Shown: one piece after another, positions 1,500 to 25,840 of the stretch
Layout: each line of letters starts with the position of its first letter
Position numbering within the stretch: position 1 is the first letter of the stretch
Origin: a virus
Virus record (IMG/VR): IMGVR_UViG_3300049020_000027
Coordinates: 1 to 38,619 of that record
Strand: one strand, 5' to 3'
DNA: 38,619 nucleotides
The notes under the pieces: model-generated
Told to the model about the DNA's origin: nothing
What the model saw: only the letters and a program-made list of their open reading frames with translations
The model's database searches: none
Made by a program: the position numbers and the translations under genes

Positions 1500-1717
1500 C
1501 CGCCCCACGCGAGCACGCCGCCTTCCCGGCCAACCTCACCCCAGCCGAGCGCCGCGCCGTGCAGGCCGTCATCGAACACGGCGAGGACAAGCGCGCAGCC
1601 AATGCCCTTGGCGTTTCCGTCTCCACCCTGCGCAGCCAGACCCATGCCGCACGCGCCAAGGCCGGCGTGTCCTGCACCGTGCGGCTGGTGGTGCTTTTCA
1701 TGGAGGCCCAGCGTTGA
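1496..1717 (+). CDS. LuxR-like HTH protein, paralogue of the C-terminal domain of the first gene
   Basis: This 73-aa protein starts at TTG 1496 in a TTGA overlap. Almost the whole protein is one HTH of the LuxR/sigma-region-4 type (residues about 14-65), with RRAVQAVIEH, the helix AANALGVSVSTLRSQ and a KAGV turn. It aligns over its length with the C-terminus of the protein at 48-584. Being just upstream of the virion genes, it is a candidate regulator of late transcription; that role is inferred. Confidence 0.7.
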   Translation: MTAPREHAAFPANLTPAERRAVQAVIEHGEDKRAANALGVSVSTLRSQTHAARAKAGVSCTVRLVVLFMEAQR

Positions 1718-1998
1718 ACCCCTTCCTCTCCGATAACCGCTGGGGCGTGGACTGGGTGCGCGTGATCGCCAACCTGCAGGCCACCGGCCTGTCGCGCGCC
1801 GGCATCGCTGAGCGATGCTTCGTGGCGAAGGGCAGCATCGACGCCTACGGCAGCGAGGACATGCGCCAGCGGCCCGAACACAGCACCGGCGAGCGGCTGA
1901 TCGCGCTGTGGTGCGAGACGCTGGGTTACGAGCGCGACGCGTTGCCCATGCACCGGCGGGGCATCTCGGTGTCGGAGATGCTGCGCTCATCACGCTAG
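1714..1998 (+). CDS. Small HTH protein of unknown role
   Basis: This 94-aa protein starts at TTG 1714 in a TTGA overlap with the preceding stop. Residues about 14-50 (VRVIANLQATGLSRAGIAER and the following helix) resemble a Cro/CI-type helix-turn-helix that skips the first helix. The C-terminus is basic. It is the last gene before the 34-bp motif and the head genes, which is where many temperate phages place a late regulator. No specific family is recognised. Confidence 0.62.
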   Translation: MNPFLSDNRWGVDWVRVIANLQATGLSRAGIAERCFVAKGSIDAYGSEDMRQRPEHSTGERLIALWCETLGYERDALPMHRRGISVSEMLRSSR

Positions 1999-2002
1999 GC
2001 AC

Positions 2003-2036
2003 GCCGGGATTCCGGCCGCCCCCCACCGAGACATTG
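2003..2036 (+). repeat. 34-bp dispersed motif, copy 1
   Basis: GCCGGGATTCCGGCC at 2003-2017 is followed after 11 bases by AGACATTG. The same arrangement occurs at 7112 and 21067. The first part can fold as GCCGG-GATT-CCGGC. A 7-bp stem (2038-2044 with 2048-2054, loop CAA) follows at once. The copy lies in the 96-base gap before the first virion gene. A protein-binding site, promoter element or antitermination-type RNA element are all possible. Confidence 0.75.
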
Positions 2037-2094
2037 CGCGGGTCCAAGACCCGCCGCAGCCACCGCCGCTGCGGCTCCAGCCAGGAGCGCCAGC

Positions 2095-2325
2095 ATGTCC
2101 CGAGCCAAAGCCACCCAAGTCCCCGGCGCCGCTGCCGCAGCCACCGCCGCTGCGCCCATCCCAGAGAGCAAGCCCGAGGTCGACGTGGCCGGCCTGCCCA
2201 ACGCCGTCGACGTGGACGCCCGCGCGCTGCGCGGCCCGGTGCTGACCCGTCAGGGCTGGGTGACACCCGACGAGGCCTGGCAGAAGGCGAACCCCGCCGA
2301 GTTCCAGAAGCTGCTGCAGGGCTGA
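2095..2325 (+). CDS. Small protein at the start of the head module, unknown
   Basis: This 76-aa protein starts at ATG 2095 with AGGAG about nine bases upstream. The first 20 residues are Ala/Pro-rich and probably disordered. The C-terminal part contains a GWVTPDEAWQKANPAEFQ segment that looks folded. No family is recognised. It is the first gene of the rightward structural block, so a minor head or assembly role is plausible but unproven. Confidence 0.65.
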   Translation: MSRAKATQVPGAAAAATAAAPIPESKPEVDVAGLPNAVDVDARALRGPVLTRQGWVTPDEAWQKANPAEFQKLLQG

Positions 2326-2332
2326 CCCGACC

Positions 2333-2827
2333 ATGTGCACGCCCAAGCTCATGGGCATCGCGGCGCCCATCACCAAGGTGAACCCGACGCTGGGAACCCT
2401 GTTCACCGGCATTCGGCCGGGCACGAATCTGGGTGGCATCGCGCTGGACCCGCTGAACCTGTCCGGCGCCTTCGGCAAGAAGGAGTCCGCGCCTGCGCCG
2501 CCTGACCCGGCGACCGAGCGCGCGACAGCCGAGGCCGAGGCAGCCCAGCGCGCCAACACGCAGCTGGCGCTCAACAACAAGCGCCGCCGCGAGCAGCAGA
2601 GCCTCATGAGCAAGGGCGCGCCCACCACGGCCGCGCCGACCTTCAGCTTCGGCGATAGCGCAGCCACCGACCCGACCGCCAACACGCTGAGCGCCACCGG
2701 CTTGACCACGCGCAACACGACGGCCAAGCGCGCATCGCTGATGTCCAGCGGCGCACCGACGGCGCCGGCCGGCGGAAGCTATGGCGGTGGTGGCGGCCGC
2801 TCGCAGTACCAGGTGGCACTCCAGTGA
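2333..2827 (+). CDS. Minor head/virion protein candidate upstream of portal
   Basis: This 164-aa protein starts at ATG 2333. It has a short hydrophobic N-terminus, an acidic/Ala-rich helical middle (residues about 60-95, PATERATAEAEAAQRAN) and a Ser/Thr/Gly-rich tail ending in a Gly run. Its stop overlaps the portal start (GTGA). Many T7-like temperate podoviruses have a protein of this size and composition just before the portal gene, usually unnamed. The function is unknown. Confidence 0.65.
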   Translation: MCTPKLMGIAAPITKVNPTLGTLFTGIRPGTNLGGIALDPLNLSGAFGKKESAPAPPDPATERATAEAEAAQRANTQLALNNKRRREQQSLMSKGAPTTAAPTFSFGDSAATDPTANTLSATGLTTRNTTAKRASLMSSGAPTAPAGGSYGGGGGRSQYQVALQ

Positions 2828-4452
2828 GAGACAGCACCGCATCCCTGTTGATCCGCCGCCTGGGCATGATGAAGGCCGAGCGGACCAAACACGAGCACAT
2901 TTGGCGCGCCTGCATCGAGGTCTGCTACCCCGAACTGGCCGAAGGCCTGAACGGTGACCAGGTCGACGCCAGCACGGCGCAGACCAAGAAGGCCGAGCAG
3001 ATGGACAGCACCGCGACGGACTCGGTGCGCATGCTGGCCAGCCAGGTCATGGGCGGCATGACGCCGGCCAATGCGGTCTGGCCCGCCTTCGACGTGGGTG
3101 ACGAGACCGACGAGGAGCAGCGCTGGCTGGACCATGCCGGTGAGCGCGTGTGGGAAGGCATCCACGGCGCCAACTACGACGCGGCCAAGTTCGAGGCGCT
3201 GCTGTTCGTCATGTGCGCCGGCTGGATGGTGCTGTTCATCGACGAGGACGGCGACGCCCTCACGTTCCAGCAGTTCCCCATCGGCCAGTGCTACCTGGCC
3301 GCGAGCCGGCCTGGCGGGCGCATCGACACGCTGTTCCGCTGCTTCAAGCTGACCGCCGAGCAGGCCGTGGCGACCTATGGCGACAAGCTCAGCGCCAAGG
3401 TGCATGACGACGCCCGGCAGAAGCCGGACACGATGCACGAGTTCCTGCACGCGGTCTACCCGCGCACCGAGTACACGCCGGGCAGCAAGCTGCCGCGCAA
3501 CCTGCCGTTCGCGTCGTGCCACGTCGAGATCAGCACCAAGCAGCTGGTGCGCGAGAGCGGCTACCACGAGCAGCCCTTCGTAGCGCCGCGCTGGACGCAG
3601 ATCCCGGGCAGCCCCTACGCAACGGGCCCGATGTCGGCGGCCCTTCCGACCGTGCGCCGCCTGAACGAGCTGCTGAAGCTGGAGACGGTGGCGCTGGCCC
3701 GTGCTGCTGCTGGCGTCTACGTGGCCGCCGACGATGGCGTGCTGAACCCCCGCACGGTGCGTGTGCGCGGCGGCACGGTCATCGTCGCCAACGACGTCAA
3801 CAGCATCAAGGAACTGCCGACCGGCGCGAACTTCAACGTCACCTTCACGAAGGCCGACGAGATGCGCGCCGAGATCCGCCGCGTGCTGATGGCTGACCAG
3901 CTGCAGCCGCAGGACGGCCCGGCGATGACGGCCACCGAGGTGCATGTGCGCGTGGCGCTGATTCGCCAGTTGCTGGGCCCGCTGTATGGCCGCTTCCAGG
4001 CCGAGGACCTGGCGCCCACCGTCGAGCGCGTCTTCGGCCTGATGTACCGCCGCGGTCGCCCTGAGCTGGGCGGCAGGCCTGGCCCGGTGGACATCGACGA
4101 CATGCCCGAGTCGCTGACGAACACCAAGTACCGCGTGCGCTTCGACAACCCGCTGGCCCGCGCGCAGCGGCTGGAGGAGGTCACGGCCATCGAGCGCACG
4201 GTGGTGCTGGCCGGCACGATGGCCCAGCAGGGCAAGCCCGAGGTGCTGGACCTGATCGACGGCGACGAAAGCCTGCGCCTGGCCGCCAAGGGCCTGGGCG
4301 CACCGGCCGCGATGTTGCGCGACGAGAAGGCGCTGGCCGTCTTCCGCAAGCAGCGCGAGCAGGCCCAAGACGACGCGGCCGACGCCGAGCAGGCCCAACA
4401 AGTTCAAACCATGGCCGTGGAGGCTGCGCTGAAGCAGCCGGCGGCGGCGTAG
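2824..4452 (+). CDS. Portal protein (T7 gp8-like head-tail connector)
   Basis: This 542-aa protein starts at GTG 2824. The N-terminal stretch with KHEHIWRACIEVCYPEL, the segment MLASQVMGGMTPANAVWPAF and the late region around EDLAPTVERVFGLMYRRG are typical of the T7-type portal family. The portal forms the dodecameric ring at the capsid vertex through which DNA is packaged and ejected. Its size matches the family (about 500-560 aa). The C-terminal 40 residues are Gln/Ala-rich helix. It sits before the scaffold and capsid genes as expected. Confidence 0.93.
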   Translation: MRDSTASLLIRRLGMMKAERTKHEHIWRACIEVCYPELAEGLNGDQVDASTAQTKKAEQMDSTATDSVRMLASQVMGGMTPANAVWPAFDVGDETDEEQRWLDHAGERVWEGIHGANYDAAKFEALLFVMCAGWMVLFIDEDGDALTFQQFPIGQCYLAASRPGGRIDTLFRCFKLTAEQAVATYGDKLSAKVHDDARQKPDTMHEFLHAVYPRTEYTPGSKLPRNLPFASCHVEISTKQLVRESGYHEQPFVAPRWTQIPGSPYATGPMSAALPTVRRLNELLKLETVALARAAAGVYVAADDGVLNPRTVRVRGGTVIVANDVNSIKELPTGANFNVTFTKADEMRAEIRRVLMADQLQPQDGPAMTATEVHVRVALIRQLLGPLYGRFQAEDLAPTVERVFGLMYRRGRPELGGRPGPVDIDDMPESLTNTKYRVRFDNPLARAQRLEEVTAIERTVVLAGTMAQQGKPEVLDLIDGDESLRLAAKGLGAPAAMLRDEKALAVFRKQREQAQDDAADAEQAQQVQTMAVEAALKQPAAA

Positions 4453-4461
4453 GAGCACAAC

Positions 4462-5607
4462 ATGTCGATGACGATTTCGGGGCCGCCGTGGAATGTGACC
4501 ATCCCGCCTGCGGTGTCAGGGGGTGGGAACAATGTGAAGCTCCCCAAGTGGCGCCGCGCGCTGGCCAAGGTCAGGGCAGGGACTGCTAACGCCAACCTGA
4601 TGGCACTCGGCGACAGCACGACTGCCGGCTCCTTTGCCACCGGCAACGGGTATGTCGCAAGCGCCCGGTCGATGAGCTACCCAACGCAGTTGGCCGCCCT
4701 GATGGCGACGGCGACGGGGCTGCCGATCAATCTGAACACCTTCGCGGGTTCCAACGCCGGCAGCTCAGACTTTCTGGCCTACGACCCCCGCTGGACATCT
4801 CTCGGCACGAACTGGACGGTAGGAGCGATCCCGAGTTTTGGCGGGTCACTGATCGGCAACAACAACGCTGGCAACTACACGACTGCCAAGTTTCAGACCA
4901 GCGGCATCACCGACACGGTCGACATCTGGTATCTCCAGAACACCAGCTACGGCACCTTCACTGTGTCTATCGACGGCGGGCAGTCCACCAGCGCCAACAT
5001 CGTTGCGGCCGGCGCGATCAGCATGCAGAAGGTGACCAAGACCTTCACGCGCGGCAGCAACCACGTCCTTGAGTTCAACAAGGTGGCTGACGGCAACGTC
5101 TTCATCGCTGGCTTCTGCGCCTATGACTCTCAGGTCAAGTCGGTGAACATCTTCAACGGCGGCTACCCTGGCAAGAAGGCCAGCGACTTCGTCGCAAACA
5201 CCAACGTGTGGGACCCGCTGCCGATGCTTGGCACGTTCGCGCCAGACCTGACGCTGTTGAACATCAACATCAACGATTGGATCGCCGGCACCGCAGCGGC
5301 GACGTTCACGTCTCAGATGCAGACCATCATCACGCAGGCCCAGTTGTCGGGCGACGTGCTGCTGCAGACCGGCATGCCGAGCAAGATCACCAGCGCCACG
5401 CAGGCGGCGCAGGATGCCATCACCGTGGCGACGCGGCTGCTTGCTCAGCCGCTCAACATCCCTGTGGTCGATGTGTCGTCGGCCTGGTGCGACTACACCA
5501 CGGCGGTGGCCAGCGGCTACTTCTTGCCGGCCAATGACGTTGTCCACCCGGGCGCCGCAGGCTACGCCAACGCGGCCCTGCTGATCTCGCAGGTCATCAG
5601 CGCCTGA
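4462..5607 (+). CDS. SGNH/GDSL-type hydrolase in the head module
   Basis: This 381-aa protein starts at ATG 4462 with GGAG six bases upstream. SGNH blocks are visible: GDS at residues 50-52 (nucleophile Ser52), Asn-Asp at 271-272 and Asp359-x-x-His362 as the likely catalytic Asp/His. A beta-rich insert (about residues 110-230) separates block I from the rest and may be a carbohydrate-binding domain. Phage members of this clan act as esterases or deacetylases on surface polysaccharide. Location between portal and scaffold is unusual for a host-polysaccharide enzyme. No signal peptide is seen, so a virion-borne role is inferred. Confidence 0.82.
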   Translation: MSMTISGPPWNVTIPPAVSGGGNNVKLPKWRRALAKVRAGTANANLMALGDSTTAGSFATGNGYVASARSMSYPTQLAALMATATGLPINLNTFAGSNAGSSDFLAYDPRWTSLGTNWTVGAIPSFGGSLIGNNNAGNYTTAKFQTSGITDTVDIWYLQNTSYGTFTVSIDGGQSTSANIVAAGAISMQKVTKTFTRGSNHVLEFNKVADGNVFIAGFCAYDSQVKSVNIFNGGYPGKKASDFVANTNVWDPLPMLGTFAPDLTLLNININDWIAGTAAATFTSQMQTIITQAQLSGDVLLQTGMPSKITSATQAAQDAITVATRLLAQPLNIPVVDVSSAWCDYTTAVASGYFLPANDVVHPGAAGYANAALLISQVISA

Positions 5608-5608
5608 C

Positions 5609-5803
5609 TCAGATGCGCGGCTGCAGGCAATCGTCGGCGTGCCCGAAGTACGCACCGCCAGCGCAGCACCTCGTCAAGAGGTTGCGGGCTTCCGTCAGCC
5701 GCTTGTCGGCGGCAGCCGTGTTGTCTGGTGTGGGCTCCGCTGCCGCGCGCGCTGCGGCGCTGACCCAGGCCTCAAGCGTCTCGAATTGCTTGTTCGTGAA
5801 CAT
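5609..5803 (-). CDS. Small antisense protein in the late operon
   Basis: This 64-aa protein starts at the complement of 5801-5803, with GGGAGAAG about six bases upstream on the - strand. It converges on the SGNH gene (stop codons one base apart) and fills an otherwise empty gap on the + strand. It contains an aromatic N-terminus (FETLEAW), an Ala-rich helix and Cys45, Cys46, Cys59 with a His. No family is recognised. The good ribosome site and exact fit into the gap argue that it is real. Confidence 0.65.
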   Translation of the reverse strand: MFTNKQFETLEAWVSAAARAAAEPTPDNTAAADKRLTEARNLLTRCCAGGAYFGHADDCLQPRI

Positions 5804-5891
5804 GTCTCTTCTCCCTGGCCCACGTTCTAGGGGCCTTGGCGAAATGTTACATGTTTCCAGCTGACCTGATTCCCATCCCCTGCCGGTACAT
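5804..5891. promoter_or_regulatory. Divergent intergenic region between antisense gene and Bbp19-like gene
   Basis: These 88 bases separate two divergently read genes and are less GC-rich than the surroundings around 5840-5865. A short inverted repeat (GGCCC and GGGCC around 5818-5835) is present. A promoter for the - strand gene is expected here, but no convincing -35/-10 pair could be fixed by eye. Confidence 0.3.
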
Positions 5892-6095
5892 ATGGCCACC
5901 CCACAGCAGTATTTCAACGCCCTGGCCCTGACCCCCGACGGCCAGGCGGTGCTCGACGAGCTGATGGACGAGTTCGGCGGCACGCTGTGGGCCGCTACCG
6001 ACGGCGATCGCGCCCGCAACATCGGCCGCCGCGAGGTGCTGGAGCACATCCAGGCCATGCTCGCCCAGGCCGAGCCCATCCCCCGCCCACGCTGA
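5892..6095 (+). CDS. Bbp19-like small phage protein
   Basis: This 67-aa protein starts at ATG 5892. The pattern of an N-terminal helix, an FGG turn, then GRREVLEHIQAML resembles the small Bbp19-type proteins that lie between portal and scaffold/capsid genes in Bordetella BPP-1-like and related podoviruses. Their function is not established. The family match is from the visible pattern and gene position only. Confidence 0.6.
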   Translation: MATPQQYFNALALTPDGQAVLDELMDEFGGTLWAATDGDRARNIGRREVLEHIQAMLAQAEPIPRPR

Positions 6096-6166
6096 CACCG
6101 CGCGGCTACGCATCGAGCAGCCGGCCCGATGCCGCCGCCCAGCACCAGGCCGGCGAAGGATGAACG

Positions 6167-7111
6167 ATGCATGTCCGCAACTTCCACCGATCGCGCCGCC
6201 TCTTCGACGAGCTGGCCACTGATGGCGGGCAGCCTGGCGGCGCTGCGGCGCCTGCTGCTGCCGCTCCGGCGGCCGACGCCACCGCAGCACCCGCACCTGC
6301 TGCCAGCGCTCCTGCACCAGGCCCAGCACCTGCGGTCAGTGCACCAGCTGCACCAGCTCCGCAGCCTGGCAGCCTCATGGCTCGCGGCGCCGCAGCTGCG
6401 CCTGCTGGACCTGCACCTGCAGGCAGCCCTGCACCGGCTGAGCCTGCGGCCACCATCCCCGAAAAGTACATCGTCAAGAACGAAGACGGGACGACGAACC
6501 ATGAAGCGACGGCGCTGAAGGTCGCGCAGGCCCACTCGGCGCTGGAGAAGCGCATGGGCGCGGGCGAGGCGCCCCCGCAGACGCCCGATGGCTACGCGCC
6601 CGAGCTGCCGCAGGGCATCACCATGGACCAGCTGAAGGCTGACCCCATGTTCGCCGGCTTCCTGAAGGGCGCACACGCGGTGGGCCTCAACAACCGGCAG
6701 GTGTCCTACCTGCTGGGCGAGTTTCAGCAGCGCGTGCAGCTCATCACCGACCAGGCGCGCGACCCTGCGGTGGCCGAGGCCGAGCTGGGCAAGGTGTGGA
6801 CGACGCCGCAGGCCATGGAGCGTGGCCTGACCAACTGCTACCGCGGCGCGCAGGCCTTCGCCGAGGACGCCGACCACGCCAAGCGCCTGGACGAGAAGTT
6901 CGGCAGCGACCCGGACTTCATCCGCCTGATGGCCAAGGTCGGCGCCGAACTCGGCGAGGACCGGCTACCGAACGGCGGGCTCACCACACTGGAGACCGAC
7001 ACGCTGGAGAGCCTGCGCCGCAGCGAGGCCTATCGCGACGCCAAGCACCCCGACCACGCGGCCACCGTCGCCAAGGTCTCGTCGCTGTATCGCAAGCTGC
7101 ACCCGGAGTAA
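6167..7111 (+). CDS. Capsid scaffold/assembly protein
   Basis: This 314-aa protein starts at ATG 6167 with GAAGGA upstream. Residues about 20-105 are an Ala/Pro low-complexity region. The remainder is acidic and helical, with PDGYAPELPQGI and LKADPMFAGFLKGAHAVGLNNRQVSYLLGEF, typical of podovirus scaffolds just before the capsid gene. Scaffolds guide procapsid assembly with the portal and then leave. Gene order (portal, scaffold, capsid) supports the call. The long Ala/Pro region is unusually extensive. Confidence 0.82.
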   Translation: MHVRNFHRSRRLFDELATDGGQPGGAAAPAAAAPAADATAAPAPAASAPAPGPAPAVSAPAAPAPQPGSLMARGAAAAPAGPAPAGSPAPAEPAATIPEKYIVKNEDGTTNHEATALKVAQAHSALEKRMGAGEAPPQTPDGYAPELPQGITMDQLKADPMFAGFLKGAHAVGLNNRQVSYLLGEFQQRVQLITDQARDPAVAEAELGKVWTTPQAMERGLTNCYRGAQAFAEDADHAKRLDEKFGSDPDFIRLMAKVGAELGEDRLPNGGLTTLETDTLESLRRSEAYRDAKHPDHAATVAKVSSLYRKLHPE

Positions 7112-7145
7112 GCCGGGATTCCGGCCGGGGCTGGGGCAGACATTG
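7112..7145 (+). repeat. 34-bp dispersed motif, copy 2
   Basis: GCCGGGATTCCGGCC at 7112-7126 is followed after exactly 11 bases by AGACATTG. It begins right after the scaffold stop and lies in the 172-base gap before the capsid gene. Further GC-rich inverted repeats follow (GCCCGG near 7157, CCGGGC near 7178). Nothing else that looks like a gene is present in 7112-7283. The placement suggests control of, or RNA processing before, capsid expression. Confidence 0.75.
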
Positions 7146-7283
7146 CCGCCAGTCCCGCCCGGCATGGCAGCCGGATACCGGGCCACAACAGCCCGGCAGC
7201 TCGTCAAACGCCAAACGAAGCAGTCGACATCGCGGCCCGAAAGGACACCCGCACCAGGGGCGTGACTCCACCAAGGAATCACC

Positions 7284-8183
7284 ATGTCCACCTCTCCGAC
7301 CATCACGACTGCATTCAAGCAGCAGTTCCACGACGGCTTCATGGACGCGCTGCAGCAGCGCGACAGCCGCTTTCAGGCCGCCGTTACCGACCGCGGCATG
7401 ATCGAGGGCTCCAGCTTCACGACCAACAACATCGGTCTGGTCGAAGCCCGCGAAGTCACCGGCCGCTACCAGGACAAGACCGCGCAGGACGTCGCGCACG
7501 AAACGCGCATCGCCTACATGGCCGACTACGACATCGGCCCCATCGTGGTCGACACGTTCGACTTGGCCAAGCTGGTCGCCGACCCGACCTACAAGTACCA
7601 GGCGCTGCTGATCGCTGCCGCGAACCGCCGCAAGGACAAGACGATCTACCGCGCGGTGCTGGACGGTTCGCTGACCCGCACGAGCGAGGGTGGCACCGTC
7701 ACGTCGACGGCCATCCCGTCGGGCCAGCAGATCGCAGCCGGCGGCACGGGCTTCACCAAGGCCAAGATCCTGCAGGCCAAGTCGCTGTTCCGCATCAACG
7801 AGGCGGACGAGTTCAACGACGAAGAGCTGTTCATGGCCTACGACGGCGTGATGCTGCGCCAGCTGCTCAGCGACACCACGCTGACCAGCGCCGACTTCAT
7901 GGCCGTGAAGATGCTGCAGGAGGGCAAGCTGGCCGACCGCTGGTGTGGCTTCAAGTGGCTGCCCTACAACGCGCTGGATGTGCCCGCGGGCAACACCTCG
8001 CGCACGGCGGCCTGGGCCAAGAGCGGCATCCAGTTCGGCACCGGCATCAACGTGGTCACCTCGATCCGCAAGAACGAGGACAAGCGCGGCCACCCGACCG
8101 AGGCCTATGCCTACATGTCGCTGGGCGCCACCCGCCAGGACGAGAAGAAGGTCGTTCAGATCGACTTCGCCAACAACGTCTAA
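7284..8183 (+). CDS. Major capsid protein
   Basis: This 299-aa protein starts at ATG 7284 with AAGGAA upstream. It matches the pattern of the short capsid family seen in temperate T7-like podoviruses: an N-terminal TTAFKQQFHDGFMDALQQRDSRF type helix, an AYMADYDIGPIVVDTFD segment, and a late region with LPYNALDVPAG. The family has an HK97-type fold and builds the icosahedral shell. Position after the scaffold and an own leader region of 172 bases fit a highly expressed gene. Confidence 0.9.
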   Translation: MSTSPTITTAFKQQFHDGFMDALQQRDSRFQAAVTDRGMIEGSSFTTNNIGLVEAREVTGRYQDKTAQDVAHETRIAYMADYDIGPIVVDTFDLAKLVADPTYKYQALLIAAANRRKDKTIYRAVLDGSLTRTSEGGTVTSTAIPSGQQIAAGGTGFTKAKILQAKSLFRINEADEFNDEELFMAYDGVMLRQLLSDTTLTSADFMAVKMLQEGKLADRWCGFKWLPYNALDVPAGNTSRTAAWAKSGIQFGTGINVVTSIRKNEDKRGHPTEAYAYMSLGATRQDEKKVVQIDFANNV

Positions 8184-16627: not shown

Positions 16628-19112
16628 GCACCCGAATTGCCGACAGCAGCTGAACGCCGCCCGCGCAGCGCAAGGCCGCAATCCTCTCACGCAGGCCCAG
16701 GAGGCGGCAATCGACGCCCGCATGGCCGGCACGCTGCGCCGCCTCGCGCGCACCGACTCGAACTGGCAGAGCTACAGCCGGGACCAGCGCTACCTCATGG
16801 CGGCCCAGGCGGCGCAGGCCGACATCGCGGCCGAGGCCGCGCGCAAGGTGGCGAACGCCCAGCGCCAGGTGCTGCGCACCGCCGAGACCGAGCAGCGAAT
16901 AACCGACACCATGACCTGGAAGGGCAGCGGCCGCACCGACGCGCTGGTGCACGACATGGAGCGGACGCACAACTACATCGACGGCATCAAGCGCGACGCG
17001 ACGCGCGGGCTGATGGAGTTGATCGACGCGGCCGACTCGGGCCAGGGGACCGGAGCCGGCCGGCGGGCTCTGATGATTGCCTTCGGCGCGCAGAACCCGG
17101 CTATGACGCGCGACCTGGCGTTGGAGGTGTTCGGGCAGGGCAAGGCTGGCACCGGCAACGCGCTGGCCAAGGCCGGAGCCGACGCATGGCTGAAGACGAC
17201 CGAGCAGCTGCGCGAGCGCTTCAACAACGCAGGCGGTGACGTGGGCCGGCTGGACTACGGCTATCTGCCCCAGGCACACGACCAGGTGCTGGTGCTGCAG
17301 ACTGGCCGCGACACATGGGCGCAGAAGGTGCTGCCAATGCTCGACCGCTCGCGCTACGTGCTGGAGGACGGCGCACGCATGTCCGACACCGAGGTACTGG
17401 ACGTTCTGCGCGGGGCCTGGGAGACGATCAGCAGCGACGGCAGCAACAAGGTGGCGCCTGGTGCACCGCGCGGCAACGGCGCCCGGGCCAACCGCGGCGC
17501 CGAGTCGCGCGAGATCCACTTCAAGGACGGCGAGGCCTATCTGTCCTACCTGTCCGAGTTCGGCCGTGGGTCGATGTACGACGCCATGATTGGCCACGTC
17601 GGCGGGATGGCGCGCGACATCGGGCTTGTGGAGCGGTACGGCCCGAACCCGCAGGCGCAGATGCGGCTGCAGTTCGACCTGGCCGAGCGCGCCGACGGCG
17701 GGCCGCAGCGGGTGTTCGGCCTGCGGCCAGAAAGCTACTGGGCCACGCTGAGCGGCGCGGCCGGCACGCCGGCCAGCGCGCGCCTGGCCAACATCGCCAG
17801 CCACGTGCGCAACATCGAGACGTTCGGCAAGCTGCAGGGCGCCGTGCTTTCGTCCATCACTGACCTGGGCACGTACTTCGTGGCCACCGGCTACAACAAG
17901 CTGAGCTATTGGGACGCGTTGCGCAATCTGGCCGTCGCCGGCGGCAGCGAGGCCAAGGAGTTCATGAACGGCCACGGCCTGATCGCCGAGTCGATGATCT
18001 CCGACCTCAACCGCTGGGCCGGCGAGAACGTGGCGCAGAGCTGGAGCGGGCGCATCGGCAACGCCACCATGCGGCTTTCGGGCATGAACCTGTGGACGGA
18101 CACGCTGCGCCGGGCCTTCCAGCTGACGCACATGGCTGGCGTGGGCCGGATGGCCGACACCCCCTGGGCGAAGCTGGCCGAGTACGACCGCTGGCGCCTG
18201 GAGAGCAAGGGCCTCACCGAGGCAGATTGGGCGGTCATCCAGTCCGCGCCGCGCGACGACTTCCGCGGGCAACCGATGGTGACGCCGGACGGCATCTACG
18301 CCACCGGTCACCCGGAGGCCGGGCAGATTGTCGCGCGCTACCTCGGCATGCTGTCGGACGAGAGTGAGACGGCCGTGCTCAACCCGGACTTGGCCACGCG
18401 CGCCATGGCGTCCGGCGGCGGCACGCAGTCCGGCACGGTGCGCGGTGAGTTGGCCAAGTCGGTGATGCAGTTCAAGAGCTTCCCCATCGCCATGATGTCG
18501 AGGCACTGGCGTCGGGCGCTGGACACACCGCAAGGTCTGGATGGCGCGCCGCTGACGGCCAACCGGCTTGCCTACGCCGGCGCCATGATGGTCAGCCTCA
18601 CGGCGCTGGGCGCCATCGCCTTCCAGATCAAGGAGATGGTGAAGGGCAAGGACCCGGTGGACATGACGACCGGCAAGTTCTGGACGCGCGCTCTGGCGCA
18701 GGGTGGCGGCCTGGGCTTCGTCGGCGACATGCTGCTGTCGGACACGACCGAGGACCGCGGCAAGCTGGACACCCTGGGCCGCGCACTGCTGGGCCCGGCG
18801 TTCGGCTCGGCGGCCGACCTGTGGGAGCTGACCAAGGGCAACGTGGACGAGTACCTGGCGGGCAAGGACACGCACGCCGCGGCCGAGGGCTTGCGCTTCG
18901 CGCGTGGGCACCTGCCGCTGGTGAACCTCTGGTACGCCAAGGCGGCGCTGGACCATGCGGGGCTGAACGCGCTGCAGGAGAACCTGTCGCCGGGCTACAC
19001 CTCGCGCATGCAGCAGAAGGCGCGCAAGGACTGGAACCAGGACTTCTGGTGGGCGCCCGGCGATGCGACGCCGCAGCGGGCGCCATCTTTCGAACAACTC
19101 GCCGGACAATAA
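16626..19112 (+). CDS. Large ejection-type virion protein (second gp16-position gene)
   Basis: This 828-aa protein starts at ATG 16626 with AGAGGT about five bases upstream. It is mostly helical, with a predicted amphipathic or membrane-active segment around residues 640-680 (LAYAGAMMVSLTALGAIAF). The C-terminal region contains GYTSRMQQKARKDWNQDFWWAPGD, reminiscent of large internal virion proteins that end with an aromatic and basic motif. T7 gp16 is 1318 aa; here the role seems split over this and the preceding gene. Catalytic residues are not recognised. Confidence 0.72.
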   Translation: MHPNCRQQLNAARAAQGRNPLTQAQEAAIDARMAGTLRRLARTDSNWQSYSRDQRYLMAAQAAQADIAAEAARKVANAQRQVLRTAETEQRITDTMTWKGSGRTDALVHDMERTHNYIDGIKRDATRGLMELIDAADSGQGTGAGRRALMIAFGAQNPAMTRDLALEVFGQGKAGTGNALAKAGADAWLKTTEQLRERFNNAGGDVGRLDYGYLPQAHDQVLVLQTGRDTWAQKVLPMLDRSRYVLEDGARMSDTEVLDVLRGAWETISSDGSNKVAPGAPRGNGARANRGAESREIHFKDGEAYLSYLSEFGRGSMYDAMIGHVGGMARDIGLVERYGPNPQAQMRLQFDLAERADGGPQRVFGLRPESYWATLSGAAGTPASARLANIASHVRNIETFGKLQGAVLSSITDLGTYFVATGYNKLSYWDALRNLAVAGGSEAKEFMNGHGLIAESMISDLNRWAGENVAQSWSGRIGNATMRLSGMNLWTDTLRRAFQLTHMAGVGRMADTPWAKLAEYDRWRLESKGLTEADWAVIQSAPRDDFRGQPMVTPDGIYATGHPEAGQIVARYLGMLSDESETAVLNPDLATRAMASGGGTQSGTVRGELAKSVMQFKSFPIAMMSRHWRRALDTPQGLDGAPLTANRLAYAGAMMVSLTALGAIAFQIKEMVKGKDPVDMTTGKFWTRALAQGGGLGFVGDMLLSDTTEDRGKLDTLGRALLGPAFGSAADLWELTKGNVDEYLAGKDTHAAAEGLRFARGHLPLVNLWYAKAALDHAGLNALQENLSPGYTSRMQQKARKDWNQDFWWAPGDATPQRAPSFEQLAGQ

Positions 19113-19115
19113 GCC

Positions 19116-19502
19116 ATGCGCCCCGACCAAGCCGAAAAACTCGAAGCCATCATCGACCGGCTGGCCGACGTGTTCATCGTCGAAGCAGACCCGGCCAACT
19201 GGACCGCCGACGGTGTCATGCCACGGGACATGACGCAGGCCCAGCGCGGTGACCGGCACTGGGACCGCAAGGGCGCCGTGGGCACGGCCGGCGTGCTGAA
19301 CCACGCGCTGAACCTGCACAAGCACTGGCGCGAGCGCGCAGCGCTGAGCCCGAGCGGCGAACTGCCGGCGGATGAGGCTGAGGATCTGGACCAGACCATC
19401 CGCAAGGCCGAGCGGCGCGCCGAGCAGATCGCCAGCAAAGCGGTCGAGAAGGCCATGCAGCGTCGCAACAAGGGCGCCCGTGAGCCAGTCAGCAAGTCCT
19501 GA
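19116..19502 (+). CDS. Small terminase subunit candidate
   Basis: This 128-aa protein starts at ATG 19116, three bases after the preceding gene, and overlaps the large terminase start. It is acidic at the N-terminus and ends in a basic helix (KAERRAEQIASKAVEKAMQRRNKGAR). Position directly before the large terminase and size near T7 gp18 (89 aa) and relatives support a DNA-recognition subunit. No sequence motif is decisive. Confidence 0.62.
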   Translation: MRPDQAEKLEAIIDRLADVFIVEADPANWTADGVMPRDMTQAQRGDRHWDRKGAVGTAGVLNHALNLHKHWRERAALSPSGELPADEAEDLDQTIRKAERRAEQIASKAVEKAMQRRNKGAREPVSKS

Positions 19503-21156
19503 GAAGGTTTCGTTTCCGGCCTTCTTTTTGATGTGGGCCGAGGTCCAGCGGTGGGACGTGCCCGACATCCACTGGATTGCCGTGCACTGGCTTGAGAACC
19601 GCGGCCGCCTGGCCGTGCTGCGCTGCTTCCGCGGCTTCGGGAAGTCCACGCTCCTGGCCGTCTACAACGCCTGGCGCTACTACCGAAACCCGGCGTTCCG
19701 CATCCTGCACCAAGGCGACCAGGACAAGACGGCCTACAAGACCAGCCGTGACACGCTGGCCGTGCTGCAGCGCCACCCGCTCACTGCCGATGCCTACCGC
19801 TACGGCATCCGCGGCAACAAGGACTCGTTCTGGTGGGGGCCAGGCTCCACCGATGAGCGCAACCCAAGCATGCAGGCGGCCGGCATCCTCACCAGCATCA
19901 CGAGTTCGCGCTGCGACGAGGTGCAGAACGACGACGTGGAGGTGCCGAAGAACATCACCAACCCAGACAACCGCGAAAAGATGCGAGGCCGCCTCGGTGA
20001 GCAGGTGCACTGCATGGTGCCTGGCGCGCCCATCCTCTACATCGGCACACCGCACACGCACGATTCTCTCTACGACGAGATGGAAGCCATGGATGCCGAT
20101 TGCCTGACCATCAAAATGTTCGATCACGAGTTCCGCGTCGAGCTGGCCGACAAGCTGAGCTATGCGCTGCCGTTCGCGCCCGAGTTCGTGCTGGTCGGCA
20201 TCGGCAAGACGTCTAAGGCGCTGCGGCCCGGCAAGGACTACACGCTGCGCGGGGCCACGATCACCTTCAAGAAGGAGCCGATGGCGCTGGTCGACTTCTA
20301 CAGCGGCAGTTCGTGGCCCGAGCGCTTCACGCTCGACGAGATGGAGTTCCGCCGGCGCAAAACCAAGACCATCAACGAATGGGACAGCCAATACCAGCTG
20401 CACAGCAAGCCGGTGCACGACCTGCGACTGGACCCGGACCGCATGCCGGCATACGACGTGGAGCCGGTCTGGAAGCGCGGCAACGGACAGCTGACCATGT
20501 GGCTGGGCCAGGCCCGCATCGTCAGCGCCGCCGTGCGCTGGGATCCTTCGAGCGGCAAGCTCAAGAGCGACGTTTCGGCGGTGGCCGTGGTGTTCCAGGA
20601 CGACACCGGCCGGCGCTACCTGCACCGCGTGCTGGGGCTGATGGGTGATGTCGTCGAGTTCGCGGACGACGGCAAGACGGTGATCGGCGGCCAGGTTCAT
20701 CAGCTCTGCAACCTGGTGGAGGAGTTGCGGCTGCCTCGCGTCACCATCGAGACCAACGGCATCGGCGGGTTCTCGCCGGCAACGCTCAAGGGCGCGCTGA
20801 AGCAGCGCCGGCTGGTGTGCGGCGTGGCCGAGCAGCACAGCACCACGCTGAAGAACAAGCGCATCCTGGAAAGCCTGGAGCCGCTGCTGTTGACCGCCGA
20901 CCAATTGTGGGCCCACGTCAGCGTGCTGGACGGTCCGCTCTACACGCAGATGCGCGACTGGAACCCCGCCGTCAAGGACCAGCCCGACGACTACCTGGAC
21001 GCCGCGGCCGGCGCCTGCGCCGAGCAGCCCGAACGCGTGATGCGCACCATCGCGCCGGAAGACCACGCCGGGATTCCGGCCCCTACCGGGCAAGACAGTT
21101 GGCGCCCATCGAGTGGCGTGCACATGCTGGAGCTGGAGACGGGCATCGTCGACTGA
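19480..21156 (+). CDS. Terminase large subunit (T7 gp19-like packaging ATPase/nuclease)
   Basis: This 558-aa protein probably starts at GTG 19480 with AAGGG upstream. The Walker A-like RGFGKST is at residues 51-57, and the acidic Walker B region with Asp-Asp-Val-Glu at 151-154 is as in T7 gp19. The C-terminal nuclease domain has Asp355, Glu424 and Asp503/Asp504/Asp507 as candidate metal ligands. It drives DNA into the procapsid and cuts the concatemer. The length fits the T7 type (586 aa). The third copy of the 34-bp motif lies within its last 30 codons. Confidence 0.93.
   Translation: MSQSASPEKVSFPAFFLMWAEVQRWDVPDIHWIAVHWLENRGRLAVLRCFRGFGKSTLLAVYNAWRYYRNPAFRILHQGDQDKTAYKTSRDTLAVLQRHPLTADAYRYGIRGNKDSFWWGPGSTDERNPSMQAAGILTSITSSRCDEVQNDDVEVPKNITNPDNREKMRGRLGEQVHCMVPGAPILYIGTPHTHDSLYDEMEAMDADCLTIKMFDHEFRVELADKLSYALPFAPEFVLVGIGKTSKALRPGKDYTLRGATITFKKEPMALVDFYSGSSWPERFTLDEMEFRRRKTKTINEWDSQYQLHSKPVHDLRLDPDRMPAYDVEPVWKRGNGQLTMWLGQARIVSAAVRWDPSSGKLKSDVSAVAVVFQDDTGRRYLHRVLGLMGDVVEFADDGKTVIGGQVHQLCNLVEELRLPRVTIETNGIGGFSPATLKGALKQRRLVCGVAEQHSTTLKNKRILESLEPLLLTADQLWAHVSVLDGPLYTQMRDWNPAVKDQPDDYLDAAAGACAEQPERVMRTIAPEDHAGIPAPTGQDSWRPSSGVHMLELETGIVD
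21067..21100 (+). repeat. 34-bp dispersed motif, copy 3 (inside the terminase gene)
   Basis: GCCGGGATTCCGGCC at 21067-21081 is followed after 11 bases by AGACA(G)TTG. It overlaps the terminase reading frame near its 3' end, about 120 bases before the tail fibre gene. The exact 15-bp match and 11-base spacing equal the two non-coding copies, so the constraint is unlikely to come from the protein. Confidence 0.7.
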
Positions 21157-21189
21157 CCCGGCCATGCGCGCCTCAACAGCGAGGCGCCC

Positions 21190-23091
21190 ATGGCAGTCCC
21201 AGAGCAGACCCCCCTGAATTCGCACTTGGCCAGCGGCGCCTCGGGCGTGTTCAGCTATGACTTCCAGATCGCGGCCGAGACCGACCTGGCCGTGACAGCG
21301 GACGGTGATCTGCTGACGTTGAACGTCGACTACACGGTGGCAGGCGTCGGCGTTGAAACTGGCGGCACCATCACCGTCACGCCCACGCCGTCGGCCGGCG
21401 TTGTCGTCACCGTCTACCGCGACACCCAGCTGAAGCGCGACGACGATTTCCAGACTGCCGGAGACCTGCCGGCCGCGCAGGTGAATCTGGAACTGGACCG
21501 CCTGTGGCGCGCGCTGCAGGAGATCTTCAGCGGTGGCAAGGGTGCTCCTACGGCCATTCGCGTGCCGCAGGGCGAGACGGTGCCGGCGCTGCCGAAGGCT
21601 GCAGACAGGGCGTCTCGGGTGCTGGCGTTTGACGCTTCTGGCAATCCCATCGTTATCCCAGGGGTGGACAGCGGCAGCGCCGCCGCCCTTGCCATCGACC
21701 TGGCCAACACCGCCAGCGCCACGAAGGGCGACTACCTCATGGGTGTCAGGCGCACTCAGACCGGTGCCGTCGCCACCACACAGCACGCGGTCAACGAGGG
21801 CCGCTGGTTCGACATGAAGGCCGACGGCGGCTGCGCTGCCGATGGTGTGACGACAGGTGATGTCGCCAAGATCCAGGCCATCATCAACGCGACGCCAGGC
21901 GTCTACTGGTTCCCCGGCGGCACCTGGCTGTGGGAATCGAAGCTGCAGCTGCCGAACGACGTGGTGCTGATCTTCTCGCCCGCGGCGACCATCAAGCCCG
22001 CAAGCAACGGCCTGACCATCTTCGGCGAGAAGGACTACGGCGGCGGCACGAAGACCTGCTACCGCAGCCAGATCATCGGCGCTCGCGTGGACGGCACCGG
22101 CAAGACGGGCACCGTCTGGGGCGACTTCACGAACATGCGTCAGGCGGGTGCCGGCATCTACAACTCCCTGGCCATCGAATGTGGCCTGCCGATCTTCCGA
22201 TTCGGCTGCTACGCCACCATGGTGAAGGACTTCACTGCGTTCGGCGGCGTGCTGTCGCCCATGACCTTCACAGCCTCGGCCAGCAAGTGCGTCGTGGAGA
22301 ACCCGATCATCGACAACCAAGTCGCCGGCACGGGGAGCGGGACGGGGACCGCGATCCAGGTCAACAGCACCACGTCCGAGACCATCGGCGTGCAGATCCT
22401 GGGCGGCTACATCCAGGGCTTCGACATCGGCATCGAGGACAAGGCCTACAACACGACCATCGAGCGCGCGTACTTCGAGCACTGCAACGTCACCGACGTC
22501 TACTTCAACGGCGCCCGCGGCAGCCATGTCGCCAGGACGGACCACAACGCCGGCATCGGCGCCTGTGGCATCAAGGCGCGCAACAGCGACGCCATCAGCG
22601 TGTTCAAGCCTCAGATGGGCAGCGGGAATCGCACTGGCCTGCTGGACTTCGACGGCACGAACACCAACTGCACGGGCGAAGTCGACTCGTCAAACGCGAG
22701 CTGGAACACGCCGCTGGGCGTGACGACCGGCATTCTGCTGAGCCCGTACTCGGCGAACTACACCGTCACGGACGCCAGCGCGGCCGCGCTAACCTTCACG
22801 CAGAACACCCAGGCGGTCTACAGCCGCGCCGGCAACACCGTCACGGTGTGCTTCGACATCACCTACCCCGTGACAGCCAGCGGCGCCAATGCCTCGATCA
22901 ACCTCCCCGTAGCGCCGAAGGCCGGCACGACCGTGACGGACTCGGCTGGCTTCACCGACTACGGCTCGGTGCTGCTGTTCAACGGCTCGGGCTCGACGTT
23001 CGGGGTGTACGCCTCATCTGGCGGCGCGCTAACCAATGCCAACCTCTCTGGCAAGCGCATCGCGGGCTCGATCACCTACATCACGCGATGA
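21190..23091 (+). CDS. Tail fibre/tailspike with T7-type N-terminal anchor
   Basis: This 633-aa protein starts at ATG 21190. Residues 1-110 match the T7 gp17 N-terminal anchor pattern (ASGVFSYDFQIAAETDLAV, then VYRDTQLKRDDDFQTAGDLPAAQVNLELDRL). Residues about 200-490 are repetitive beta-strand segments with a start resembling the pectate-lyase-type spike fold (DGGCAADGVTTGDVAKIQAII). The C-terminal 120 residues are a beta-rich receptor-binding domain. It probably binds, and may degrade, a host surface polysaccharide. The active site cannot be located. Confidence 0.85.
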   Translation: MAVPEQTPLNSHLASGASGVFSYDFQIAAETDLAVTADGDLLTLNVDYTVAGVGVETGGTITVTPTPSAGVVVTVYRDTQLKRDDDFQTAGDLPAAQVNLELDRLWRALQEIFSGGKGAPTAIRVPQGETVPALPKAADRASRVLAFDASGNPIVIPGVDSGSAAALAIDLANTASATKGDYLMGVRRTQTGAVATTQHAVNEGRWFDMKADGGCAADGVTTGDVAKIQAIINATPGVYWFPGGTWLWESKLQLPNDVVLIFSPAATIKPASNGLTIFGEKDYGGGTKTCYRSQIIGARVDGTGKTGTVWGDFTNMRQAGAGIYNSLAIECGLPIFRFGCYATMVKDFTAFGGVLSPMTFTASASKCVVENPIIDNQVAGTGSGTGTAIQVNSTTSETIGVQILGGYIQGFDIGIEDKAYNTTIERAYFEHCNVTDVYFNGARGSHVARTDHNAGIGACGIKARNSDAISVFKPQMGSGNRTGLLDFDGTNTNCTGEVDSSNASWNTPLGVTTGILLSPYSANYTVTDASAAALTFTQNTQAVYSRAGNTVTVCFDITYPVTASGANASINLPVAPKAGTTVTDSAGFTDYGSVLLFNGSGSTFGVYASSGGALTNANLSGKRIAGSITYITR

Positions 23092-23213
23092 ACGACGGGC
23101 ACACCATGCGCAACCTCATCATCAAGATCCTCGAAACCCTCCTGGCCTGGGCGCGACCCAAGCCGCCCGTGTCCATCCAGGGCGGCGGCGGGCCAGGGGA
23201 AGAGCACAAATGA
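23088..23213 (+). CDS. Very small protein at the start of the lysis cassette
   Basis: This 41-aa protein starts in an ATGA overlap with the tail fibre stop; an alternative ATG is at 23106. It has a hydrophobic helix (LIIKILETLLAWARP) followed by a Pro/Gly-rich tail, and its stop overlaps the next start. It might be a tiny membrane-associated lysis factor. No family is recognised. Confidence 0.5.
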   Translation: MNDGHTMRNLIIKILETLLAWARPKPPVSIQGGGGPGEEHK

Positions 23214-23584
23214 GGCTCGCCGCGGCGTTGCTGCTGCTGGTGGCGTGCTGCCACTACGGAGACAGCCTGCTCGCCCAGGGGTACGACAACCCCGAGGCCG
23301 CCGCTCGCGCGATCTTCTACATCCTGCGCGGGATTGAGGGCGTGGTGCTCTTCGCCGTCATTGCCGCCATCACACGCAATCGCTACGCGTTCGCTGTCTG
23401 CCTCTTCGGCATGTTCGAGGAAGGCCAGACGGCAATTTGCAGGGCCGCAAAGCCCATCGCAGAAAGGCCAGCCGTCGAGCTGTTCAAAGGCCTCTGCGGT
23501 GAGCCTTGGTACGGGGTAGGCCTACTTCTGGCGGCACTCATCGCCGCGTCTATGGCTGACAAGCTCCGGGAGGGTAGGCCGTGA
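23210..23584 (+). CDS. Membrane protein of the lysis cassette
   Basis: This 124-aa protein starts at ATG 23210 in an ATGA overlap. It has a signal-like N-terminal hydrophobic stretch (LAAALLLLVACC), a second segment at about 47-61 (VVLFAVIAAI) and a third near the C-terminus (YGVGLLLAALIAAS). Two cysteines follow the first segment. It is probably an inner-membrane protein acting with the adjacent holin candidates. The exact role is unknown. Confidence 0.65.
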   Translation: MRLAAALLLLVACCHYGDSLLAQGYDNPEAAARAIFYILRGIEGVVLFAVIAAITRNRYAFAVCLFGMFEEGQTAICRAAKPIAERPAVELFKGLCGEPWYGVGLLLAALIAASMADKLREGRP

Positions 23585-23886
23585 ACATCGAAGAAATCTT
23601 GAAATCGCCGGACGTGGCTGGCACTGCGGGCGCCATCCTGGGTTGGCTCAGCGCCCCCGGCGGCACGCTCCGAGAACAGCTCTTCAACGTCGGCGCAGGG
23701 TTCGGCGCCGCGTTCTTCTTGGCCCCGTACATGGCTGAGCGCGCCGGGCTGGAGTCGCGCGCTAGCCAGATGGCGTTCGCTTTTGTCGTCGGCCTCGTCG
23801 GCATGAACGTCCTCCCCAAGCTCATCAGCGCCGCCAAGCGGGCCGACTGGTCCGCGTTGCTGCCGGCCAAGAAAGGCAAACCATGA
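23581..23886 (+). CDS. Holin-like protein
   Basis: This 101-aa protein starts at GTG 23581 overlapping the previous stop. Two hydrophobic segments are seen (about 14-30 and 37-53), with a third, weaker one at 63-80, and a basic C-terminus ending KKGKP. This architecture and the place before the lysis enzyme suit a holin that opens the inner membrane. No specific holin family can be assigned by eye. Confidence 0.6.
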   Translation: MNIEEILKSPDVAGTAGAILGWLSAPGGTLREQLFNVGAGFGAAFFLAPYMAERAGLESRASQMAFAFVVGLVGMNVLPKLISAAKRADWSALLPAKKGKP

Positions 23887-24110
23887 TGGCCTTCGCTCTC
23901 CTGCTCGCCGGACTGGCGGGCGCTCTCGCTTCGGTGCTGATCTGCAAGGGCATCACGTTGCGCCTCTGGGCGGACGTCGCGGCTGGCATGGGCGCCGTGT
24001 TGGGCGTCTGGGCGTCGGCCATGCTTGCCGGCAGCGACCCGTGGCCGCTATGGGGCTTCTGGGCAGGCTACGCGGCCGTGGTCGTGTACCTGCGGAGGGC
24101 GGCGTCATGA
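23883..24110 (+). CDS. Second holin-like membrane protein
   Basis: This 75-aa protein starts at ATG 23883 overlapping the previous stop. Three hydrophobic segments (about 2-21, 28-47 and 52-70) account for nearly all of it, and the end is basic (YLRRAAS). It could be a holin, or partner/antiholin of the preceding protein. It overlaps the next gene by four bases. Confidence 0.6.
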   Translation: MMAFALLLAGLAGALASVLICKGITLRLWADVAAGMGAVLGVWASAMLAGSDPWPLWGFWAGYAAVVVYLRRAAS

Positions 24111-24535
24111 CGTACGCCACCCTGAGCCGCGGCCCCAGCACTGACGAGGGCACGTTCGGCCGCATCGTCTGCGCCAACGGCCCCGAGCTTCACAGCCTGG
24201 AACTGCCGTGGCGCGAGAACAAACCGCAGATCAGCAGCATCCCGAAGGGCGTCTACCTCTGCGAGCTGGTCGACTCGCCAAAGTTCGGCCGGGTCTACGA
24301 GGTGCGCAACGTGCCGGGCCGGTCGCACATCCTCATCCATGCCGCGAACTGGGCCGGCGACCGCGCCAAGGGTCTGCATAGCGACCTGCTGGGCTGCATC
24401 GCGCCGGGCGACAGCGTCGGCATGCTGCAGCCCCCCAACGGCCGCATGCAGCGGGCGGTCATCGGCAGCAAGCGGGCACTGCACGACCTCATGGCCTGGG
24501 CCGGCGGCGAGCCATTCGAGCTGACGATCCGATGA
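24107..24535 (+). CDS. DUF5675 family protein, candidate lysis enzyme
   Basis: This 142-aa protein starts at ATG 24107 in an ATGA overlap. The pattern of GTFGRIV near the start, LELPWRENKPQISSIPKGVY, HILIHAANWAGD and LGCIAPG fits the DUF5675 family found in phage lysis cassettes. His73 and His76, Asp83 and Cys94 (approximate numbers) are conserved-looking polar residues. No classical lysozyme, amidase or transglycosylase gene is seen in the window, so this is the best endolysin candidate. Enzymatic activity is inferred only from position. Confidence 0.75.
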   Translation: MTYATLSRGPSTDEGTFGRIVCANGPELHSLELPWRENKPQISSIPKGVYLCELVDSPKFGRVYEVRNVPGRSHILIHAANWAGDRAKGLHSDLLGCIAPGDSVGMLQPPNGRMQRAVIGSKRALHDLMAWAGGEPFELTIR

Positions 24536-24900
24536 GCCCCTGGTTCGTCCTCGCCGCTGTCGGCCTCGTCGGCGCCCTGACCGGCGGCGCCTATTGGCAG
24601 GGCCGCCAGGACGGCGAGGCCAAGATCGTGGCGCAGGAGGCGCGCGAGCGCGAGATCGCCGCGGAGGCCGTCGACGCGGCCCTCAATGCTTCGGCGCAGG
24701 CGATCGGCGCCATCAAGGTCCAGCACCGGACCCTCACCCAGGAGGTGGAGCGCCATGTCATCGAGAAGCCCGTCTATCGCGATCCTGGCTGCCGGCACGA
24801 TGCTGACGGCCTGCAGCGCCTCAATGCCGCGCTCACCGGCGCAGCCCGGCCCGAGCCCGCTGGTAGTGGCGTCGTGCCCCGAACTGGCGCCGCTGAGTGA
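24532..24900 (+). CDS. Rz: i-spanin (Rz-like)
   Basis: This 122-aa protein starts at ATG 24532 in an ATGA overlap. A single N-terminal membrane segment (residues about 4-20) is followed by a long periplasmic helix rich in Ala, Glu and Gln. The segment EKPVYRDPGCRHDADGL-QRLN is typical of Rz-like proteins. Together with Rz1 it spans the periplasm and fuses the membranes at lysis. The Rz1 gene lies inside it in another frame. Confidence 0.85.
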   Translation: MSPWFVLAAVGLVGALTGGAYWQGRQDGEAKIVAQEAREREIAAEAVDAALNASAQAIGAIKVQHRTLTQEVERHVIEKPVYRDPGCRHDADGLQRLNAALTGAARPEPAGSGVVPRTGAAE

Positions 24901-24985
24901 TCCGAGCTTTGGCGCGACGACGCTGAAGCTGATCGAGGTGGCTGGGCAGTACCGAGAGTGCCGGGCGGCTGCGCTGGCGCGGTGA
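24755..24985 (+). CDS. Rz1: o-spanin (Rz1-like lipoprotein), embedded in Rz
   Basis: This 76-aa protein starts at ATG 24755 with AGGAGG nine bases upstream. A lipoprotein signal ending LTAC at residues 15-18 is followed by a Pro-rich stretch, as usual for Rz1. It is read in a +1 frame relative to Rz and extends 85 bases beyond it, an embedded-overlapping arrangement. It pairs with the i-spanin from the outer membrane. Confidence 0.85.
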   Translation: MSSRSPSIAILAAGTMLTACSASMPRSPAQPGPSPLVVASCPELAPLSDPSFGATTLKLIEVAGQYRECRAAALAR

Positions 24986-24986
24986 C

Positions 24987-25793: not shown

Positions 25794-25840
25794 GACGTTC
25801 TCCCTATGAAGATTGCAGGTTGTTCACTTCGTGTTCACTT
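25640..25840. other. Putative phage attachment region (attP)
   Basis: A less GC-rich stretch lies at the 3' side of integrase 1, where lambda-type phages carry attP. It contains a perfect hairpin TTCGCC-TTATCT-GGCGAA (25685-25702), which is a candidate core. It also has two direct 9-bp repeats TGTTCACTT at 25821 and 25832 (11-bp period), candidate arm sites; one overlaps the last integrase codons. The region also encodes the N-terminus of the SGNH lipoprotein frame. No host sequence is available to fix the core. Confidence 0.45.
25821..25840. repeat. Tandem 9-bp direct repeat beside integrase 1
   Basis: TGTTCACTT occurs at 25821-25829 and 25832-25840, separated by CG, so the copies lie on the same face of the helix. 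Position at the integrase 3' end suits arm-type integrase or excisionase binding sites. The assignment is inference. Confidence 0.6.

Follow-up and report, generated by a model that had tools for sequence, protein, structure and literature searches.

A temperate podovirus-like phage, represented by a 38.6-kb virus record (the window, meaning the whole stretch of 38,619 nucleotides analysed here), carries the same short motif ahead of several blocks of virion genes. What is this motif for, and which protein acts on it? The sequence-only reading of the window had left two options, an activator site and an antitermination-type RNA, and had proposed small HTH proteins encoded just upstream of the first copy as partners.

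Copies in the window and in relatives

The motif, GCCGGGATTCCGGCC-N11-AGACA, is present on the + strand with zero mismatches at 2003-2033, 7112-7142 and 21067-21097, as the sequence-only reading had described. It was found 0 times in 100 shuffles, so the chance expectation is none. Annotation also bears out the placement given there, ahead of the first structural, capsid and tail fibre genes. Copy 1 lies 4 bp past an HTH gene (1714-1998) and ahead of the first late gene (ATG 2095), and copy 2 starts directly past the stop of the scaffold/protease gene (7111), ahead of the capsid gene (7284). Copy 3 does fall inside the terminase frame, within the final 30 codons of terL (19372-21156), and precedes the tail-fibre gene (21190).

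Among viral contigs, the exact 31-bp pattern is found in three further records. All are fragments of the window's own virus, and independent relatives were therefore needed. A search with the capsid protein gave 35 loci (42-100% identity), of which ten complete or long records were examined in more depth. A genome search added prophages of Roseateles, Variovorax, Herbaspirillum, Herminiimonas, Pseudomonas, Stenotrophomonas, Pantoea, Trabulsiella, Pluralibacter and Gilliamella, and a profile search added many enterobacterial-type prophages. L072 is a prophage of Variovorax paradoxus 110B and L068 one of Roseateles aquatilis CCUG 48205.

These relatives carry a two-part element, consisting of a 14-bp dyad and a downstream hexamer, at places equivalent to those in the window: where the virion operon begins, ahead of the capsid gene, and within the 3' end of terL, upstream of the tail fibre gene. 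It is present in Burkholderiales, Pseudomonas, Stenotrophomonas and enterobacterial relatives and prophages, and the absence from matching positions that would have counted against the earlier proposal was not observed. In most relatives the dyad is 140-200 bp ahead of the capsid gene, and in nine records (the window, G001, G004, G007, G010, G012, G014, G016 and L143) a copy is located 48-81 bp before the terL match ends. G001, the nearest of the long relatives, has four copies, and three of these are at window-equivalent places. The window-type 14-mer dyad by itself occurs in more than 100 viral-contig stretches, mostly once in each, which is chance-like. The significance of the motif thus rests on the two-part element at homologous places and not on the bare dyad.

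Several individual arrangements depart from this layout. The fourth G001 copy (position 4649; L048) sits between the portal and scaffold genes, directly past an intrinsic terminator. It is absent from the window, in which the matching interval holds an SGNH-like tail protein gene (4462-5607). L034 (at 3539) and L072 (at 6087) have a second, imperfect dyad directly past the HTH gene and about 300 bp ahead of a good first copy, which is possibly a decayed or autoregulatory site. In two capsid relatives, Acinetobacter TPWB-05 (L045) and Alcaligenes Piluca (L046), a gene resembling 1714-1998 is distant from the late block and there is neither a capsid leader nor a dyad; late control may be different in these two. 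An E. coli version of the element is present in 2 of 5426 complete genomes, which brings the system within reach of a laboratory host.

Anatomy of the element and the case for a promoter

The first part of the element is a 14-bp dyad made up of a 5-bp arm, a 4-bp centre and a second 5-bp arm. The second part, 12-14 bp beyond the dyad, is a hexamer of the form xAnnnT. When the dyad was used as the sole anchor for 100 distinct sites, the only strong downstream columns were position +23, with A in 85% of sites, and position +27, with T in 87%; the rest were at background. A second clade (21 sites) shows an identical A/T pattern 1 bp nearer the dyad. An A and a T four bases apart are what a sigma70 -10 element would show (-11A and -7T), a match that would place the dyad centre at about -32.5, or at -31.5 in the second clade. 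In less GC-rich phages the hexamer resembles TATGAT, TATATT, CATATT or TACAGT, and in many phages an A/T-rich stretch (AAATA or ATTT) lies upstream of the dyad.

On this profile, copy 1 in the window is composed of the dyad GCCGG-GATT-CCGGC (2003-2016), a candidate regulator site covering roughly -39 to -26 at the start of the virion operon, and a putative -10 hexamer, GACATT, at 2030-2035. Copy 2 pairs a dyad at 7112-7125 with GACATT at 7139-7144 as a putative capsid promoter, and copy 3 pairs a dyad at 21067-21080, in the 3' end of terL, with GACAGT at 21094-21099 as a putative tail-fibre promoter. All of these are on the + strand; the dyads are supported by the exact pattern and by copies at equivalent places in relatives (at the terL end for copy 3), and the hexamers by the dyad-anchored profile. 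The N11-AGACA pattern originally proposed is exact in the window, but its leading A is coincidental because relatives conserve GACAKT-like hexamers, and the right arm and the hexamer are in fact 13 bp apart.

The element might conceivably serve some other purpose, as a DNA site for packaging, replication or recombination, or be due to chance, and the single-copy occurrence of the bare dyad in many contigs would be in keeping with this. However, the orientation, the A-to-T distance and the places ahead of transcription units are all fixed, and the shuffles yielded no copies; we give this explanation almost no credence.

No combined sigma70 -35/-10 match was found on either strand in the parts of the window scanned (1700-7600 and 19000-26000). 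The place of the -35 element has no adequate hexamer and is instead covered by the dyad. With sites picked under general scan rules, the arms of the dyad are constant within one phage (4 of 4 copies in G001 and 3 of 3 in the window) while the linkers diverge. The arms vary from phage to phage. The arm is GCCGG in the window and the Variovorax group, GGCGG in Roseateles, GCAGA in G004, GTCAA in Pantoea and GTCGG in most others, and the arms in G001 and L011 are GACGG/CCGAC. A statistic comparing arm identity within and between phages was set aside as biased by site selection. An intrinsic terminator is present directly upstream of 50 of 85 distinct capsid copies, compared with 28 of 2160 random positions (1.3%). 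The arms, terminators, hexamer and places of the element all fit a promoter.

The centre of the dyad shows a pattern of its own in Pseudomonas prophages (L074, L078, L080, L083, L085-L091 and L093). The capsid copy has the centre GAAA and the other copies mostly GATT, GAAC or GATC, as if tuning promoter strength or order.

The same sequence could also be read as RNA, with a GATT-loop hairpin and a downstream single-stranded box forming a nut/put-type antitermination or processing signal. This model was attractive at first from the symmetric stem changes seen between phages, and by eye some capsid copies have a possible second hairpin around ACATTGC; we later dropped it and consider it very improbable. 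A lambda N/nut (boxA-boxB) or put signal calls for a hairpin in every copy, whereas L097-L101, L105 and L136 have lost the palindrome and its pairing and keep one half-site, and in G009 the palindrome is short but the sequence stays. The centre varies between GATT, GAAA, GAAC and GATC inside one phage, and an A-A mismatch is retained in all four G001 copies. Copies lie directly past intrinsic terminators, and the frequency of these ahead of capsid copies means that upstream transcripts would usually stop short of the hairpin. No relevant Rfam match was found for the element in the window and six relatives. Thus, of the two options originally left, the activator site or promoter is strongly supported, and the lost pairing, varying centres and upstream terminators argue against the antitermination-type RNA.

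A separate feature is found past copy 2 only. Strong conservation and a predicted fold define a probably structured capsid mRNA leader at 7145-7283 (+ strand), with the invariant blocks CCCGCCCGG..TGGCnGCCGGAtACCGGG and GCGGCCC..GGACACCCGC. The predicted fold has multiple stems, and four pairs show double-sided changes. Beta- and gammaproteobacterial relatives show similar elements, and an Rfam search of the window and six relatives gave no match to the leader.

A candidate regulator and its possible mode of action

Three small HTH genes lie ahead of copy 1 in the window, and tblastn found homologues in relatives for only one of them. This gene (1714-1998, + strand) encodes a 94-residue protein with a TTG start, HTH94, which belongs to the profile family PHROG 16553 (phrog_16553, E 8e-12), annotated as 'transcriptional repressor'. 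A profile search found an HTH94 homologue in the motif-bearing phages that are long enough to show one. The gene is often no more than about 15 bp upstream of the first copy, or overlaps it, and in several phages the first copy is at +4 to +14 relative to the gene. The proteins at 48-584 and 1496-1717, which had been suggested as partners, gave no homologue in relatives by tblastn, and the 1714-1998 protein tracks the motif instead. By these comparisons, the putative dyad partner is the product of 1714-1998 and neither of the two HTH proteins named earlier. Those two proteins have related LuxR/sigma-region-4-like HTH ends (42% identity) and are encoded just ahead of the late block.

An AlphaFold model of HTH94 (mean pLDDT 80.8) has a confident HTH core and consists of one HTH domain; the smallest homologues have about 80 residues. 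Its fold matches among solved structures are XRE-type: restriction-modification (R-M) controller proteins, P22 c2 and 434 Cro. The matches reach a Foldseek probability of 1.00 with E-values of 0.03 or weaker, and a middling VIA Z of up to 8.5. The modelled fold is lambda-repressor-like (XRE/Cro/controller), and with such weak E-values it is the fold alone that we claim. By sequence, HTH94 had no credible match in the PDB and none in Pfam or NCBIfam.

We calculated mutual information between protein columns and arm bases for 20-33 non-redundant protein-site pairs. A recognition-helix column, residue 43 (D43 in HTH94), had the highest value with arm base 2 among the columns tested (0.60-0.74, compared with at most 0.35). 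The association was reached in 0 of 2000 permutations, which ignore relatedness, and there are only about four independent arm changes. An arm base T occurs mostly with I, L, M or F. C is found for the most part with D, E, Q or R, a pairing seen in the window, L105, L107 and the Variovorax group. Three cases are exceptions: Y accompanies C in L103 and T in L109, and H accompanies T in L129. On the capsid tree, the roughly four changes between T and non-T arms fall on lineages in which the residue changes too. Such a pattern is what would be expected as the trace of a protein that reads the dyad.

Each copy of the element is probably an activator-dependent sigma70 promoter of late (virion) genes, with the 1714-1998 protein as its partner. 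A dimer of HTH94 would sit on the 14-bp dyad, with GCCGGGATTCCGGC as its predicted target and one recognition helix directed to each half-site. The dyad would stand in for the -35 element, and the bound dimer would recruit or stabilize host RNA polymerase-sigma70 at the weak -10 hexamer (GACATT or GACAGT), with transcription starting about 7 bp downstream of the hexamer, near 2042, 7151 and 21106. In the prophage state the late promoters would be silent, and expression of the operon that contains the HTH gene would turn on all late units together. The sequences themselves show the two-part element and where it recurs, its -10 signature, the missing -35, the tie to one HTH family and the paired changes in protein and site; from these we infer binding, activation rather than repression, the start sites and the dimer contacts. 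We favour an activator because promoters in which a factor site replaces the -35 element depend on a factor, and because the HTH gene heads the late block and one type of factor site precedes several late units. Some observations are less readily accommodated by an activator: the dyad centre at -32.5 is nearer the -10 element than usual class II activator sites, and only a half-site is well kept in L097-L101, L105 and L136.

The PHROG family name likewise points away from an activator, and the late promoters could instead be repressed by the HTH protein, with the dyad as operator. The dyad overlaps the -35 position, and the fold is common to Cro and c2. Yet with no -35 hexamer these promoters are expected to be so weak that repression would be unnecessary, and the HTH gene heads the late block, oriented in the lytic direction. 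We regard repression as quite unlikely.

Another observation that does not sit easily with simple activation is a terminator close past the first copy in Pseudomonas prophages, which hints at antitermination. An intrinsic terminator follows the first copy within tens of bases in L083 (5241), L085 (4970), L086 (5131), L088 (5076) and L093 (4860), and the next gene after it in the inspected prophages is holin-like, a layout that resembles AlpA or lambda Q targets. The promoter and dyad could thus be real, with the HTH protein binding there and serving chiefly as a loader of the Q/AlpA kind or as an antitermination partner that lets polymerase pass downstream terminators; AlpA and GafZ do use promoter-embedded sites (PMC7969949, PMC9371919, PMC11150451). 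However, the window protein has 94 residues modelled as a single HTH domain and no N-terminal ring or nozzle segment, and the minimal homologues of about 80 residues leave no room for a nozzle of the AlpA/21Q type. The dyad lies farther upstream than the interval between -35 and -10 that AlpA uses, terminators at capsid copies are more often upstream of the promoter than downstream, and a -35 element for activator-free initiation is absent. This explanation is unlikely overall, but the first-copy terminators keep it alive for the Pseudomonas group.

Activation by HTH94 would provide a concrete and testable late-gene switch for a large set of temperate phages and prophages, those of Pseudomonas, Stenotrophomonas and enterobacteria among them. 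We found no description of a late regulator for these phages in the open-access papers searched. A family filed as repressors would be relabelled as probable activators, late operons could be mapped from sequence, and the phages would supply matched pairs of protein and DNA site, a natural series in which recognition by small HTH proteins could be studied.

Comparison with known systems

Late promoters of P1 (Lpa) and middle promoters of T4 (MotA box) also have a phage-factor site in the place of the -35 element, keep the -10 element and are dispersed over the genome. The P1 repeat is near -22, and the MotA box is near -30 and works with AsiA, so that position and factor are unlike those of the HTH94 system. 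Lambda CII represents a related idea.

The best fold matches of HTH94, the R-M controller (C) proteins C.EcoT38I, C.Kpn2I, C.Esp1396I and C.AhdI, are likewise lambda-repressor-like HTH proteins of about 80 residues. The HTH94 system differs from C proteins and their C-boxes in its dispersed phage virion promoters and single dyad at about -32.5, and HTH94 has no sequence-level match in the PDB. Mu Mor at Pm is, like the proposed HTH94 complex, a phage-encoded dimer that acts with sigma70 on two 5-bp inverted repeats, but its site is 16 bp long and centred at -43.5 (PMC4390567), compared with 14 bp near -32.5 here, and HTH94 has a lambda-repressor-like fold. AlpA of P. aeruginosa and GafY/GafZ of C. 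crescentus are also HTH regulators of the prophage type, and they load at promoters that belong to phage-like gene blocks (PMC7969949, PMC11150451). AlpA recognizes GGGACG between -35 and -10 and has an N-terminal ring, and GafY binds far upstream with IHF, whereas HTH94 consists of a single small domain. PHROG 16553 itself includes gp01 of BcepC6B, the sole phage record matched by HTH94 in tblastn; the window-type dyad was not seen in BcepC6B.

The three site sequences were not found in the open-access literature searched, and with subscription papers outside this scope their novelty is provisional. As far as we can tell, none of these known systems matches HTH94 jointly in fold, size and site position. 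We judge the chances to be even that PHROG 16553 is an undescribed, widespread family of late-gene activators, which would act at dispersed late promoters through a dyad at about -32.5 that replaces the -35 element, with specificity set largely by one recognition-helix residue, so that each phage's regulon could be predicted from its protein.
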